Assembly (NCBI GenBank): GCA_026991225.1
Contig: JALXCB010000191.1
Span: 1-33,290, forward strand
Source: Anaerolineae bacterium
Lineage (GTDB): Bacteria > Chloroflexota > Anaerolineae > J102
Direction of reading: 5' to 3'
DNA length: 33,290 bases
How positions within the stretch are numbered: the first letter of the stretch is position 1; every line of letters begins with the position of its first letter. The notes below the pieces were generated by a model that was not told the origin of the DNA, searched no databases, and saw only the letters and a list, made by a program, of their open reading frames with translations. Positions 4,238 to 31,512 of the stretch are shown one piece after another. The position numbers and the translations under genes were made by a program.

Positions 4238-4299
4238 GTTGGGCGGGCAAGATGCGCGTTTGGGCGTAGATTTGATCATTGTTGCGGAAGTGTGCATAC

Positions 4300-4467
4300 T
4301 GTTCCGCATACAGCGTTGCGTTGGATTGCAAAAGTGAGTTGAAGCCCACGTTGGGCGTGTTTGCAACCCACGTGATGCGTAATGCGTAATCCGTGAGGTC
4401 GTTACGCATCACGCATTACGCATTACGTCATTGGCTTTCCGCGCCAACATGGCCGCGAGGCCATTTC
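4300..4467 (+). repeat. Dispersed repeat family E, copy E1
   Basis: This 168-bp segment is homologous over its full length to 31321-31488 in reverse orientation. The core is a long hairpin of reiterated GTGATGCGTAAT words (4372-4426). The flanks CGTTGGGCG...TTGCAACCCACGT and GGCTTTCCGCGCC are also shared. A small perfect hairpin, ATGGCCGCGAGGCCAT, lies at 4449-4464. No gene lies between the rplL terminator and 4525. Confidence 0.8.
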
Positions 4468-6225: not shown

Positions 6226-6237
6226 GCGCTGGGCCTA

Positions 6238-6480
6238 AACTAAACGCATTGTGAAATCAGGTGTTTTCGGCCTCGGCCACCCGGAGCTGAAGCTCCGGGC
6301 TACGGAACGACGCCGGGTGAACCCGGCTTCCCGCGGCGCGCGACATGCGCCGTAGCCCCATTTATGGGGCGTCGTTCTTAGCCCGCAGGTTCACCTGCGG
6401 GCGGCGGCGCGGCCAGAGAATCGCCTTTCATGGATGATCCAATGCAAACCAAAAGCCTTGGTTTCAATTTGCTTTCAGTT
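6238..6480 (-). mobile_element. MITE-like element family A, copy A1 (243 bp)
   Basis: Full-length copy in inverse orientation, bounded by TA at 6236-6237 and 6481-6482. Ends are AACTAAACGCATTGTGAAA on the left and the AACTGAAAGCAAATTGAAA end on the right. It contains four short GC-rich hairpins, for example AGCCCGCAGG...CCTGCGGGC at about 6380-6402. It fills the gap between the amidase stop and the regulator stop. No ORF is supported. Confidence 0.85.
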
Positions 6481-6498
6481 TAGACGCTCACTTAGCGT

Positions 6499-9797: not shown

Positions 9798-9860
9798 GCA
9801 TGTTGTTAGACGTAGACACTCTTTATCAGAGGAACGTCGAGCCAAGGCTGAGTGAATCTG

Positions 9861-9951
9861 TCACCAATGTGATGCGTGATGCGTAATCCGTGAGATCGTT
9901 ACGCATCACGCATTACGTATCAGGAACTCGGCTTCCCGCGCTGCGTCAGCA
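9861..9951 (+). repeat. Dispersed repeat family E, copy E2 (short)
   Basis: The core hairpin of GTGATGCG/GCGTAATCCGTGAG words (about 9869-9918) matches E1 and E4. A CGGCTTCCCGCGC tail follows at about 9929. The upstream flank shared by E1 and E4 is missing. It lies in the divergent regulator-transporter gap. Confidence 0.65.
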
Positions 9952-12977: not shown

Positions 12978-13440
12978 GTAACTGAACTGAAAACAAATTG
13001 AAACCAAGGCTTTTGGTTCGCGTTGGATCATCCATGAAAGGCGATTCGCTGGCCGCGCCGCCGCCCGCAGGTGAACCTGCGGGCTAAAAACGACGCCCCA
13101 TAAATGGGGCTACGGCGCATGTCGCGTGTCGCGGGAAGCCGGGTTCACCCGGCGTTGTTTCGTAGCCCGGAGCTTCAGCTCCGGGTGGCCGAGGCCGAAA
13201 ACACCTGATTTCAAAATGCGTTTAGTTTACTAACGTAGCAAGGTCGAAAACCACGAAGACACGACGACACGAAGGCACGAAGGGGAAAAGTGGCAGGTGG
13301 CAGGTAGCAAGTGGCAGGTGAGAAACGTCGCTGCTAGAAGAACTTGCCACTTGCGACCTGCAAACCTGCATCGTCTTCGTCCCTTCGAGCCTTCGTGGCA
13401 AGGCATTTTCGATGCCGAACCAGGCCACCTTAGCAGTTAC
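12978..13440 (+). mobile_element. Family B element B5, interrupted by A2
   Basis: The left TIR begins GTAACT at 12978 and is split by A2 (12985-13227). It resumes at TACTAACG (13228). The right TIR ACCTTAGCAGTTAC ends at 13440. Internal words (GGCAGGTAGCAAGTGGC, CACGAAGGCACGAAGG) match B8 in inverse orientation. It carries the uninterrupted version of the D1 target, with CCTGCATCG at 13365-13373. Confidence 0.7.
12985..13227 (+). mobile_element. MITE-like element family A, copy A2 (243 bp)
   Basis: Left end AACTGAAAAC and right end GCGTTTAGTT, flanked by TG (12983-12984, probably a mutated TA) and TA (13228-13229). The same four hairpins as A1 and A6 are present. It is inserted in the left TIR of B5. 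Confidence 0.85.
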
Positions 13441-16900: not shown

Positions 16901-16914
16901 CCGCCGCCGCGCTA

Positions 16915-17153
16915 AACTGGAGGCAAATTGAAATCAAGGCTTTTGGTTCGCATTGGATCATCAGCGAAAGGCGATTCTCTGGCCGCGCCGCCGCCCGCAG
17001 GTGAACCTGCGGGCTAAAAACGACGCCCCATGAATGGGGCTTTCATGCTGTGACTGCATTCAAGCCGGGGTCACCCGGCGTCGTTTCGTAGCCCGGAGCT
17101 TTAGCTCCGGGTGACCGAGGCCGAAAACACCTGATTTCAAAATGCGTTTAGTT
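16915..17153 (+). mobile_element. MITE-like element family A, copy A3 (239 bp)
   Basis: Left end AACTGGAGGCAAATTGAAA after TA (16913-16914); right end GCGTTTAGTT followed by TA (17154-17155). Three hairpin modules match A1, A2 and A6, but the middle segment (about 17041-17061) is replaced by TTCATGCTGTGACTGCATTC, also found in A4. Confidence 0.85.
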
Positions 17154-17155
17154 TA

Positions 17156-17347
17156 AACTGGAAGCAGAATGAAAACCAGGTTCGTGGTTTGATTTCCATA
17201 CGAATGCGACGCTATTCGATGGCCATCCGGCGTCCCGCAGGTGAACTGCGGGCTAAAAACGACGCCCCATGAATGGGGCTTTCATGCTGTGACTGCATTC
17301 AAGCCGGGGTCACCCGGCGTCGTTCCATAGCCCAGCGACTTCAGCTA
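17156..17347 (+). mobile_element. Truncated family A element A4, abutting A3
   Basis: It begins AACTGGAAGCAGAATGAAA directly after the TA that closes A3. It shares a 75-bp identical block with A3 (17011-17085 equals 17250-17324). Its right end is lost around 17347. Confidence 0.7.
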
Positions 17348-19940: not shown

Positions 19941-20327
19941 GTAACTACTAAGGTTGTCACCCGAAAACCACTAAACTGAAAGCAAATTGAAACCAAGGCT
20001 TTTGGTTTGCATTGGATCATCCATGAAAGGCGATTCTCTGGCTGCGCTGCCGCCCGCAGGTTCACCTGCGGGCTAAAAACGACGCCCCATGAATGGGGCT
20101 ACGGTGCATGTCGCGCGCCGCAGGAAGCCGGGTTCACCCGGCGTCGTTTCGTAGCCCGGAGCTTCAGCTCCGGGTGGCCGAGGCCGAAAACACCTGATTT
20201 CAAAATGCGTTTAGTTTAAGTACACCAAGACACAAAGGCACAAAGGGGAATTTATACATTTTTTCTTCGTGTTCTTAGTGCCTTTGTGCTCTTTGTGGTT
20301 TGTTAACCGGGGTACGTTAGCAGTTAT
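19941..20327 (+). mobile_element. Family B element B3, interrupted by A6
   Basis: The left part GTAACTACTAAGGTTGTC... (19941-19971) and the right part (20219-20327, ending TTAGCAGTTAT) join into one B element equivalent to B2 at 26192-26334. A6 sits at a TA in between. TTTATACATTTTTT is shared with B2. Confidence 0.75.
19974..20216 (+). mobile_element. MITE-like element family A, copy A6 (243 bp)
   Basis: Cleanest copy. Ends are AACTGAAAGCAAATTGAAA and, inverted, AACTAAACGCATTTTGAAA. TA flanks both sides (19972-19973 and 20217-20218). Internal hairpins are GCCCGCAGG...CCTGCGGGC, GCCCCATGAATGGGGC, GCCGGGTTCACCCGGC and CCCGGAGC...GCTCCGGG. It carries no coding potential. Confidence 0.9.
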
Positions 20328-24028: not shown

Positions 24029-24071
24029 CGGCGACATCCGAGGACTTCGAAGCCCGGCGAGCAAGCCTGCG

Positions 24072-24176
24072 CTGATGCGGATGAAAATGAGAACGCTGAT
24101 AACGCGGATGCTTCGCATCGCAGATTTACGCAGATGATTTTCACAGATTTTTTCTTTATCATCTGCGTTCCCTAAT
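24072..24176. repeat. Low-complexity word repeat (GCTGATAACGCGGATG type)
   Basis: Reiterated words GATGCGGATGAAAATGAG, CGCTGATAACGCGGATG, ACGCAGATGATTTTCAC and ATCATCTGCGT form an imperfect self-complementary region. It lies between the GT39-like stop and the terminator of the minus-strand gene. No ORF is supported. Confidence 0.55.
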
Positions 24177-24200
24177 CCTATTTTTGGAACAGCAGGACAT

Positions 24201-25145: not shown

Positions 25146-25289
25146 GTAACTACTAAGGTCGTCACCCGTCGTCGCCCGAAAACCACTAAGAACACAAAGG
25201 CGCAAAGGGAAATGGATACATTTTTCTTCGTGTTCTAAGCGCCTTTGCGCCCTTTTGTGGTTTGTTGACCGGGGTGAGTTGACGGTTAC
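25146..25289 (+). mobile_element. Family B element B1
   Basis: The left TIR GTAACTACTAAGGT (25146-25159) and a decayed right TIR (ending GACGGTTAC, 25289) match B2 in length (144 bp) and interior (AACCACTAAGAACACAAAGG, TACATTTTT, TTCGTGTTCT). No convincing TSD remains. It lies directly upstream of the bL25 gene. Confidence 0.75.
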
Positions 25290-26191: not shown

Positions 26192-26334
26192 GTCACTACT
26201 AAGGTCATCACACGAAAACCACTAAGAATACGAAGACACAAAGGCACAAAGGGAAATTTATACATTTTTTTCTTCGTGTTCTTGGCGCCTTTGTGCCCTT
26301 TGTGGTTTGTTAACCGGGGTACGTTAGCAGTTAC
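26192..26334 (+). mobile_element. Family B element B2 (143 bp)
   Basis: TIRs are GTCACTACTAAGGT on the left and, inverted, GTAACTGCTAACGT on the right. A perfect 8-bp TSD, TTGAAAAG, is at 26184-26191 and 26335-26342. The inside has complementary AAGACACAAAGGCAC and GTGCCCTTTGTGG words around TATACATTTTTTT. It lies between the tRNA-Glu terminator and the DUF190 stop. Confidence 0.85.
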
Positions 26335-27688: not shown

Positions 27689-28441
27689 ATGAACACCCGT
27701 CCCTATGAAGTTCACGAATCCGATATCCTCATCCTCCGGGCGGCGGAGTTGCTGTCCTGGGTGGTCGAGGACGCCGTGAACGCCCGCGGCGTGGCCCACA
27801 TCGCCATCTCGGGCGGCTCCACGCCCCGCCCATTGTTCAAACTCCTGGCCGCGCCTCCGTGGCGGGAGCGCATTCCCTGGGGCCGAACCCATATCTGGTG
27901 GGTGGACGAACGCTGCGTCCCCCCCGACCATCCCCATAGCAACTTCGGCGTGGCCTACGCGCTGCTCCTGCAACACCTGCCCATCGTCATCACTCATCGC
28001 ATCCACGGCGAGGAGGACGATCCCCAACAAGCTGCCGCCCTTTACGAGCAGGAGATCACAACGACGATGGGCCTGGCCGCCTGGCAATGGCCCCGGTTCG
28101 ATCTGATCTTGCTGGGTATGGGCGCGGACGGTCACACCGCTTCCCTCTTTCCGGGCGATCCCGCGCTGACCGTGCGCGACCGTCTGGTCACGGTGGGCCA
28201 TGCCCCCACAGCACCTCGCGATCGGGTCACCCTCACCCTGCCTGTGCTCAACCAGGCCGCGCATGTGATCTTCCTGATCGCGGGCGCAGGTAAGGGGCCC
28301 GCCCTCCGCCGCGTCTTTCATAAAGAAGACCCCCAGCCCCTGCCCGCAGCTCTGGTGGAGCCGGAAAACGGCTATCTGCTGTGGCTGTTGGACCGGGATG
28401 CGGCCCGCGCCGCGGACATGCCTTTTCTGTCTTGTAGATAA
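27689..28441 (+). CDS. pgl: 6-phosphogluconolactonase
   Basis: This 250-residue enzyme hydrolyses 6-phosphogluconolactone to 6-phosphogluconate, step two of the oxidative pentose phosphate pathway. It has the SGGSTPRPLF phosphate-binding loop (about residues 36-45), WWVDERCVPPDHPHSN (about 71-86) and LILLGMGADGHTASLFPG (about 138-155), all hallmarks of the SugarP_isomerase-fold DevB/Pgl group. The length is normal. ATG 27689 lies 6 nt from a -10 box with no ribosome-binding site. It heads a pgl-tal-zwf set; a family E repeat separates it from tal. Confidence 0.94.
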   Translation: MNTRPYEVHESDILILRAAELLSWVVEDAVNARGVAHIAISGGSTPRPLFKLLAAPPWRERIPWGRTHIWWVDERCVPPDHPHSNFGVAYALLLQHLPIVITHRIHGEEDDPQQAAALYEQEITTTMGLAAWQWPRFDLILLGMGADGHTASLFPGDPALTVRDRLVTVGHAPTAPRDRVTLTLPVLNQAAHVIFLIAGAGKGPALRRVFHKEDPQPLPAALVEPENGYLLWLLDRDAARAADMPFLSCR

Positions 28442-28475
28442 CGTTGGCGTTCTTTGCGAAAGGTTCGCCAGGCCA

Positions 28476-28577
28476 AAGTTGGGCGAGGCTGCAACGCACG
28501 TAAAACGTCAAACGTGAAACGTCATGTCCTCACGCATCACGTTTCACTCGTCACGTCTTCAGCTTTCCGCGACCACG
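28476..28577 (-). repeat. Dispersed repeat family E, variant copy E5
   Basis: The flank GTTGGGCGAGGCTGCAACG (28479-28497) and the CTTTCCGCGACC tail match E4 and E1. The hairpin core differs: words AACGTCAAACGTGAAACGTC with CACGTTTCACTCGTCACGTC replace the GTGATGCGTAAT words. It lies between pgl and tal. Strand is nominal; the flank order is as in E1. Confidence 0.6.
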
Positions 28578-28633
28578 CAGCCGATACGCACTTTCATCAC
28601 CACACGAGAACCCCTACCAAGATCGAGGTGACT

Positions 28634-31287: not shown

Positions 31288-31320
31288 CAGGCGACACGAG
31301 CAGCAACTCGCCGATACCGA

Positions 31321-31488
31321 TGAAAACGCCTCGCGGTCAGGTTGGCGCGGGAAGCCAAACACGTAATGCGTAATGTGTGATGCGTAATGACCTCACGGAT
31401 TACGCATCACGCATCACGTCCGTTGCAGACTCGCCCAACGGGGACTTTGAGTCATTTTTGCAAACCAACGCAACGCTATTTTCGGAAC
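31321..31488 (-). repeat. Dispersed repeat family E, copy E4
   Basis: 168 bp homologous to E1 (4300-4467) in inverse orientation, including flanks and the GTGATGCG/GCGTAAT hairpin core (about 31362-31420). It lies between the convergent zwf and aldolase genes. The zwf terminator is not otherwise obvious, so this hairpin may serve both. Confidence 0.8.
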
Positions 31489-31512
31489 AGGAGCGATCCG
31501 TAAATCGCTCCT
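31489..31512 (-). terminator. Hairpin after the aldolase gene
   Basis: A perfect 9-bp stem AGGAGCGAT/ATCGCTCCT with a 6-nt loop lies 6 bp beyond the minus-strand stop. There is no strong T-tract, so termination is tentative. Confidence 0.5.

Follow-up and report, generated by a model that had tools for sequence, protein, structure and literature searches.

E5, an element in the 33,290-nucleotide stretch of Chloroflexota DNA analysed here (the window), is probably one copy of a modular, non-coding mosaic repeat, whose modules are shuffled anew as copies recombine with one another and as arrays contract. Together with E1 and E4 in the same window, it belongs to a dispersed non-coding repeat with hundreds of copies, far beyond chance. 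E copy numbers derive from whole-genome pattern counts, in which the inner left flank gave 326 matches (29 for the reversed-pattern control), the inner right flank 150 (21 for the reversed control) and the outer frame motif 334 (4 for the reversed control). The 168-bp E4 query returned 432 first-look candidates genome-wide. A profile search over 751 kb, composed of stretches picked around known copies and hence a sample biased to repeat-rich regions, identified 156 E copies, 102 of which have both inner flanks. The genome stems from an uncultured Chloroflexota bacterium (Caldilineales/Anaerolineae), with Anaerolineae and Caldilineae MAGs as its named relatives, and is a draft metagenome assembly, as are all genomes compared here; repeats can be misjoined in such assemblies.

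E copies in the window

The neighbours of E5 are a 6-phosphogluconolactonase-like gene on one side and a transaldolase gene on the other, after which comes glucose-6-phosphate dehydrogenase. On the forward strand it comprises a decayed left frame CTGTCTTGTAGATAA (28427-28441; four mismatches to the frame consensus CTGYTNYGAAAATAG), a left module of the type GTTGGCG...GCGAAAGGTTCGCCAGGCC (28442-28477; 102 copies compared), an inner left flank GTTGGGCGAGGCTGC (28478-28492; from the window sequence and the whole-genome pattern count), a 68-nt heptamer-word array as core (CGTAAAACGTCAAACGTGAAACGTCATG...CATCACGTTTCACTCGTCACGTC, 28493-28560), an inner right flank AGCTTTCCGCGACCA (28561-28575) and a decayed right frame CACTTTCATCAC (28589-28600), for which the right-end alignment of copies gives the consensus CATTTTCATCGG. 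The inner-flank sequence reads GTTGGGCGAGGCTGCAACG at 28478-28496 and CTTTCCGCGACC at 28563-28574.

E1 (4299-4467, forward strand) consists of a frame remnant (4299-4313), an inner flank (4350-4364), a GTGATGCGTAAT-class core (4365-4432) and an inner right flank (4433-4447). E4 (31309-31490, reverse strand) has an intact frame (left part 31476-31490, right part 31309-31326) around a core of the same GTGATGCGTAAT class. Over 169 nt, E1 (4299-4467) and E4 (31322-31490) form an inverted pair that is 86% complementary. E2 (9840-9941, forward strand) is a fourth copy; its left flank has diverged, and it combines a GTGATGCGTAAT-class core with the right flank GGCTTCCCGCGC. Besides that of E4, the window holds one more intact frame, at 24070-24192 on the reverse strand; frame comparison identifies it as an outer frame of the E4 type with a ACGCAGAT-word hairpin in place of the E core. 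A sequence-only reading of this DNA had described E1 and E4 as matching copies and E5 as a copy with conserved flanks and another core. Sequence comparison bears this out, except that the outer flanks are not kept. As E5 has another left module than E1 and E4, and a decayed frame, sharing is limited to the inner flanks.

Rfam returned two tRNAs and a ribosomal protein L10 leader (RF00557, 3010-3156) alone in the window, and no family matching the E repeats. Other repeats are also present. GTAG-tagged REP-like palindromes (GTAGCCCGGAGCTTCAGCTCCGGG) occupy 6236-6483, 12981-13230, 16912-17333 and 19970-20219, and elsewhere in the genome also flank a Y1 transposase (RAYT-like) gene (L285). A family with the ends GTAACTACTAAGG and GTTAGCAGTTA is found at about 20217-20326, at 25146-25287 and at 26192-26333. 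Another copy of this family, near position 1343 of L193, interrupts a ACGCAGAT cassette; what seems to be an 8-bp duplication, AAAAAATC, accompanies the interruption, and on account of this duplication the family looks like a MITE.

Exchange of the core between copies

The core of E is built of degenerate 7-base words arrayed on both arms of a hairpin. Core lengths follow the series 47/54/61/68/75 in 70 of the 102 copies and the series 62/69/76 in another 25, the latter because one class has an extra base inserted in its left arm; 7 of the 102 lie elsewhere. The two 7-bp series together thus cover 95 of the 102 cores, a pattern of 7-nt repeats on both arms and 7-nt length steps like that of the P6b hairpin discussed below. 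Instead of one ancestral core with point changes only, several core classes exist, including GTGATGCGTAATGCGTAAT, GTGATGCGTGAAAACGTGAAACG, GTAAAACGTCAAACGTGAAACG (the class of E5) and GTCAAACGTCAATCG. Folded as DNA, the E5 hairpin is weaker (z = -1.6) than those of E1 (-3.9) and E4 (-3.5). The two arms of a copy pair at -25.8 kcal/mol, compared with -23.8 kcal/mol (sd 0.4) for arms reshuffled between copies. Within a single core class, however, own arms match little better than shuffled ones, so most of the arm match is due to inheritance of the core as a block.

Several lines of sequence evidence indicate that the core is exchanged between copies independently of its flanks, with both arms moving together. 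Over the 59 bp compared, two other loci (L069:264 and L192:11084) match the E5 core at 100% identity. Cores at least 85% identical to it occur at 14 loci, where the 37-bp left modules share only 57-70% identity with the E5 module and are of other types. Among 5,151 copy pairs, 98 are alike in the core (at least 0.93) and unlike in the left module (at most 0.65), 11 are alike in the left module (at least 0.93) and unlike in the core (at most 0.75), and 4 are alike in both.

Linkage and Mantel tests on 70 gap-free aligned copies point in the same direction. Starting from 0.15, the r2 of pairs of variable columns declines to the chance level (0.015) within some 100 bp, whereas the core arms retain 0.14-0.22 at distances where other column pairs are down to 0.03. 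Accordingly coupled in the Mantel test are the two core arms (r = 0.535, p = 0.002). No association links the core to the adjoining inner left flank (0.01-0.02) or to the right module (0.00 and -0.08); its association with the left module is weak (0.13-0.16), so the shuffle of modules is incomplete.

The suggestion that a core is swapped at a fixed position is therefore supported by identical E5 cores beside several kinds of left module, by a core-flank association at chance and by the coupling of the arms. The accompanying idea of a regenerated core is not supported: the core of E5 recurs as a copy at 14 other loci, and orthologous E-to-E pairs keep their core type, with point changes and 7-bp steps.

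The outer frame and orthologous loci

Copies open with CTGYTNYGAAAATAG and close with TTTTCATCGGTATCGGCG, which is followed by a small variable hairpin and then by the CTGCTTTGAAAATAG of the next unit, so that head-to-tail joining is possible. One and the same frame (CTGCTTTGAAAATAG...TTTTCATCGGTATCGGCG) is found around eight or more kinds of insert, most of them word-hairpins; those other than E are made of ACACGGATGA, CGTCATTTCGAGG, TCTCACGCAAAG, ACGCAGAT, GTAGACCGG, CACGAAGG or GATCAGTTATCAG words. Most inserts fold as long hairpins, with z values for DNA folding as low as -7.5; the CACGAAGG and GATCAG inserts are without such a fold. As in NIMEs, the constant repeat alternates head to tail with several families, in arrays of up to four units. 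Of the hallmarks of a MITE, inverted ends (TGAAAA/TTTTCA) alone are seen, and a clean empty site for the whole frame was found in 0 of 25 orthologous pairs.

Two readings were rejected. Around the four Y1_Tnp genes examined, out of five, there is no frame or inner-flank match, and for these four a RAYT/REP origin of the frame was discarded, as the frame is missing around each. The motif GTTGGGC fits the GTTRRRY of attC sites, but the wrong side carries its partner motif, and the genome yields no match to the integron integrase (TIGR02249) above cut-off, generic tyrosine recombinases alone being found.

Comparison of 25 orthologous loci in the sister species G006 and G008, with flanks mostly 90-96% alike, directly visualized whole-cassette differences. 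At five loci the frame is at the same place and holds different cassettes (L200/L265, L275/L224, L305/L308, L286/L309 and L277/L223; at L277 and L286 the G006 array runs to the contig end), a difference in array content between relatives as described for NIME-type arrays. At the level of the outer frame, these loci agree with the proposed swapping. Differential loss from a longer ancestral array may fit these differences as well as replacement does.

Six of the 25 loci keep the E core with small changes: point changes at L196/L215, loss of one heptamer at L204/L270, loss of one heptamer adjoining the loop from each arm at L280/L225, gain of complementary words in both arms at L278/L231, and further small changes at L209/L269 and L281/L221. 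The core is partially deleted or collapsed at four loci (L205/L266, L276/L219, L212/L273 and L279/L230). A unit is added at two, L301/L307 and L197/L267, and at the latter a whole unit was gained or lost precisely between frame repeats. The other eight are empty in one species or without clear assignment. At the orthologous E loci among these 25, replacement of the inner-core class is not seen directly; replacement within the inner flanks is inferred from the discordance of core and flank between copies of one genome.

The locus of E5 itself is without E in G001, G003 and G008. In G006 it holds another insertion (L108, about 2360-2650), absent in G008, with TIR-like ends GTRACYATACAG, an 8-bp duplication ACGCAAAA and CGTCAAACGTCA words inside. 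The view that the exchanged core reflects neither ordinary point mutation nor transposition stands in part. Several core classes exist, as it implies; transposition or another kind of insertion is possible as the origin of copies, given that whole units are present or absent between sisters (L197/L267).

In both sister species, several E copies are fused just after the core to a CGTCATTTCGAGGGAGCG repeat (L208, L209, L210 and L211 in G006; L228, L231 and L233 in G008); from its occurrence at several loci, the fusion appears to have spread as a unit. L217 (G008 contig 187) and L074 near 10964 are near-identical DNA including the flanks, although the two species differ widely elsewhere; either a misbinned contig or a very recent transfer would account for this.

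Mechanism and relation to known systems

The repeat can be seen to vary on three nested levels. On the outermost, the frame CTGCTTTGAAAATAG...TTTTCATCGGTATCGGCG with its small hairpin forms head-to-tail arrays of interchangeable cassettes, mostly hairpins of short degenerate words. One of these is the E cassette, in which constant inner flanks, GTTGGGCGAG... and GGCTTCCCGCGCC, enclose a hairpin of 7-bp words from one of several core classes. Within the arms, number and identity of the words vary in 7-bp steps. Ordinary recombination among the many copies would be the simplest cause of the exchange: gene conversion may act between E copies, the arrays may be remodelled where frame repeats undergo deletion or unequal exchange, and slippage may change the number of 7-bp words; initial dispersal of the copies would have required some insertion process. 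The hairpins may influence transcript ends or be merely tolerated by the host.

Four other explanations were weighed against such reshuffling. Each core class might represent a branch of a transposing element, split off a single time and amplified afterwards with no exchange between copies. The recurrence of core classes in many copies and the differences between sister species in presence or absence of copies are compatible with subfamilies of this kind, yet identical cores occur beside unrelated left modules and the reverse, linkage is at chance within 100 bp, and the core is unlinked even to the directly adjoining inner flank; descent by subfamilies is therefore disfavoured, and we consider it very improbable. 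Mobile repeats that differ but have equal ends could also have inserted independently at a hot spot common to both species, without exchange in place. The E5 locus, with its unrelated insertion and ACGCAAAA target duplication in G006 and its empty state in G008, is in line with this, and shows that such intergenic spots receive insertions repeatedly. Nonetheless, five loci share position and sequence of the frame and differ in contents, which would need site-specific repeat insertion, and the free assortment inside the E family would be left unexplained, so that independent insertion seems unlikely.

A dedicated exchange of cassettes at CTGCTTTGAAAATAG/TTTTCATCGG, integron-like or resembling the action of a phage integrase on dRS3, would explain why exchange boundaries at the outer level fall at the frame, why cassettes are arrayed head to tail with constant spacers and why the gain or loss of one whole unit fell precisely between frame repeats. 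Homologous deletion from one frame repeat to another, however, yields equal junctions, the gradual decay of linkage inside E copies is what homologous tracts would give, the cassettes are without a reading frame to select, and the tyrosine recombinases of the genome are generic, with no integron integrase above the family cut-off. We thus hold this mechanism to be quite unlikely. We are similarly sceptical of a broader variant, a dedicated non-coding cassette system in which a frame conserved in several genera would specifically take up and trade word-hairpins of self-complementary sequence at hundreds of chromosomal loci, with a copying process to keep their arms complementary. The word array might instead be rebuilt in place, for instance by template switching between the arms. 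The paired two-arm changes at L280/L225 and L278/L231 and the better pairing of own over reshuffled arms favour such de novo regeneration, but the E5 core exactly copies cores elsewhere, the arm match within a class is little above shuffled and the E5 hairpin is weak. Regeneration of E5 as a perfect palindrome was rejected for its weak hairpin and copied core. We regard rebuilding in place as highly doubtful; if it occurs, its reach is at most single words rather than an entire core.

Reshuffling of mosaic modules has precedents. In the NIMEs of Neisseria, the short constant repeat dRS3 alternates with several RS families in intergenic arrays; dRS3 reaches almost 700 copies per genome, and recombination between dRS3 elements has been suggested (PMC3898611). 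The likeness lies in a constant short repeat that alternates in arrays with several insert families. Here, one side of the constant part measures about 15 bp and the other, which has a hairpin of its own, 18-55 bp; the sequence of the constant part is GAAAATAG...TTTTCATCGGTATCGGCG and not the ATTCCC(N8)GGGAAT of dRS3, the cassettes are mostly hairpins of degenerate words, and the phylum is different. BIMEs of enterobacteria form mosaic intergenic arrays (PMC3116915, PMC2817692), and gene conversion has been proposed for the evolution of REPs (a review by Higgins, as cited in PMC3116915). E resembles BIMEs, REPs and REPINs in its hundreds of intergenic palindromic repeats in mosaics; it differs in that the four Y1 transposase loci inspected are without the frame, whereas a gene of this kind does have the window's other palindromes, those with the GTAG tag, at its sides. 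BOX elements (boxA-boxB-boxC) have constant ends and a number of middle modules that varies between strains (PMC3049150); in the frame, the variable middle is replaced by other sequences and not just multiplied. In P6b of the cyanobacterial tRNA-Leu(UAA) intron, degenerate 7-nt repeats of several classes and varying copy number make up the paired arms of a hairpin whose position is fixed (PMC3488679). P6b is one intron locus, in contrast to the hundreds of dispersed loci with mosaic-repeat flanks described here. MITEs with 8-bp target duplications are matched by other repeats at these loci, with the ends GTRACYATACAG and GTAACTGCTAA, one of them with CGTCAAACGTCA-like words; the E frame is without an established target duplication or a clear terminal inverted repeat. 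By these comparisons, the E repeat appears new in joining mosaic intergenic arrays with heptanucleotide hairpins of several repeat classes, each known separately, and suggests that mosaic arrays resembling those of Neisseria occur in a distant phylum.

Frame motif and heptamer-word pattern were counted in 120 related genomes and are distributed independently. The frame is common within the genus as well as in certain other genomes of the family, with 60 matches in G012 and 37 in G018, where the heptamer words have 0 and 1. Conversely, distant genomes rich in heptamer words (172 matches in G077, 590 in G097, 365 in G107 and 123 in G036) have 0, 2, 0 and 0 frame matches, respectively. The frames of G012 hold other word-hairpins, made of GGACGAT and TGGTCTAC words. 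Degenerate word hairpins, with heptamers such as ACGCATC or ACGTTTC, occur across many genomes of the class. In the genus, the words are separable from their carriers, with frames lacking words, words lacking a frame and sisters with unlike inserts, and this separability makes the spread and change of the hairpins directly testable by strain comparison. In G077 and G036, the heptamer hairpins stand alone and have no common flank. Examples are L325-L328 (G077) and L331-L332 (G036), lone hairpins with unique flanks, some of which seemingly start at or overlap a stop codon. The stand-alone hairpins of these two genomes are possible candidates for transcript-end structures.
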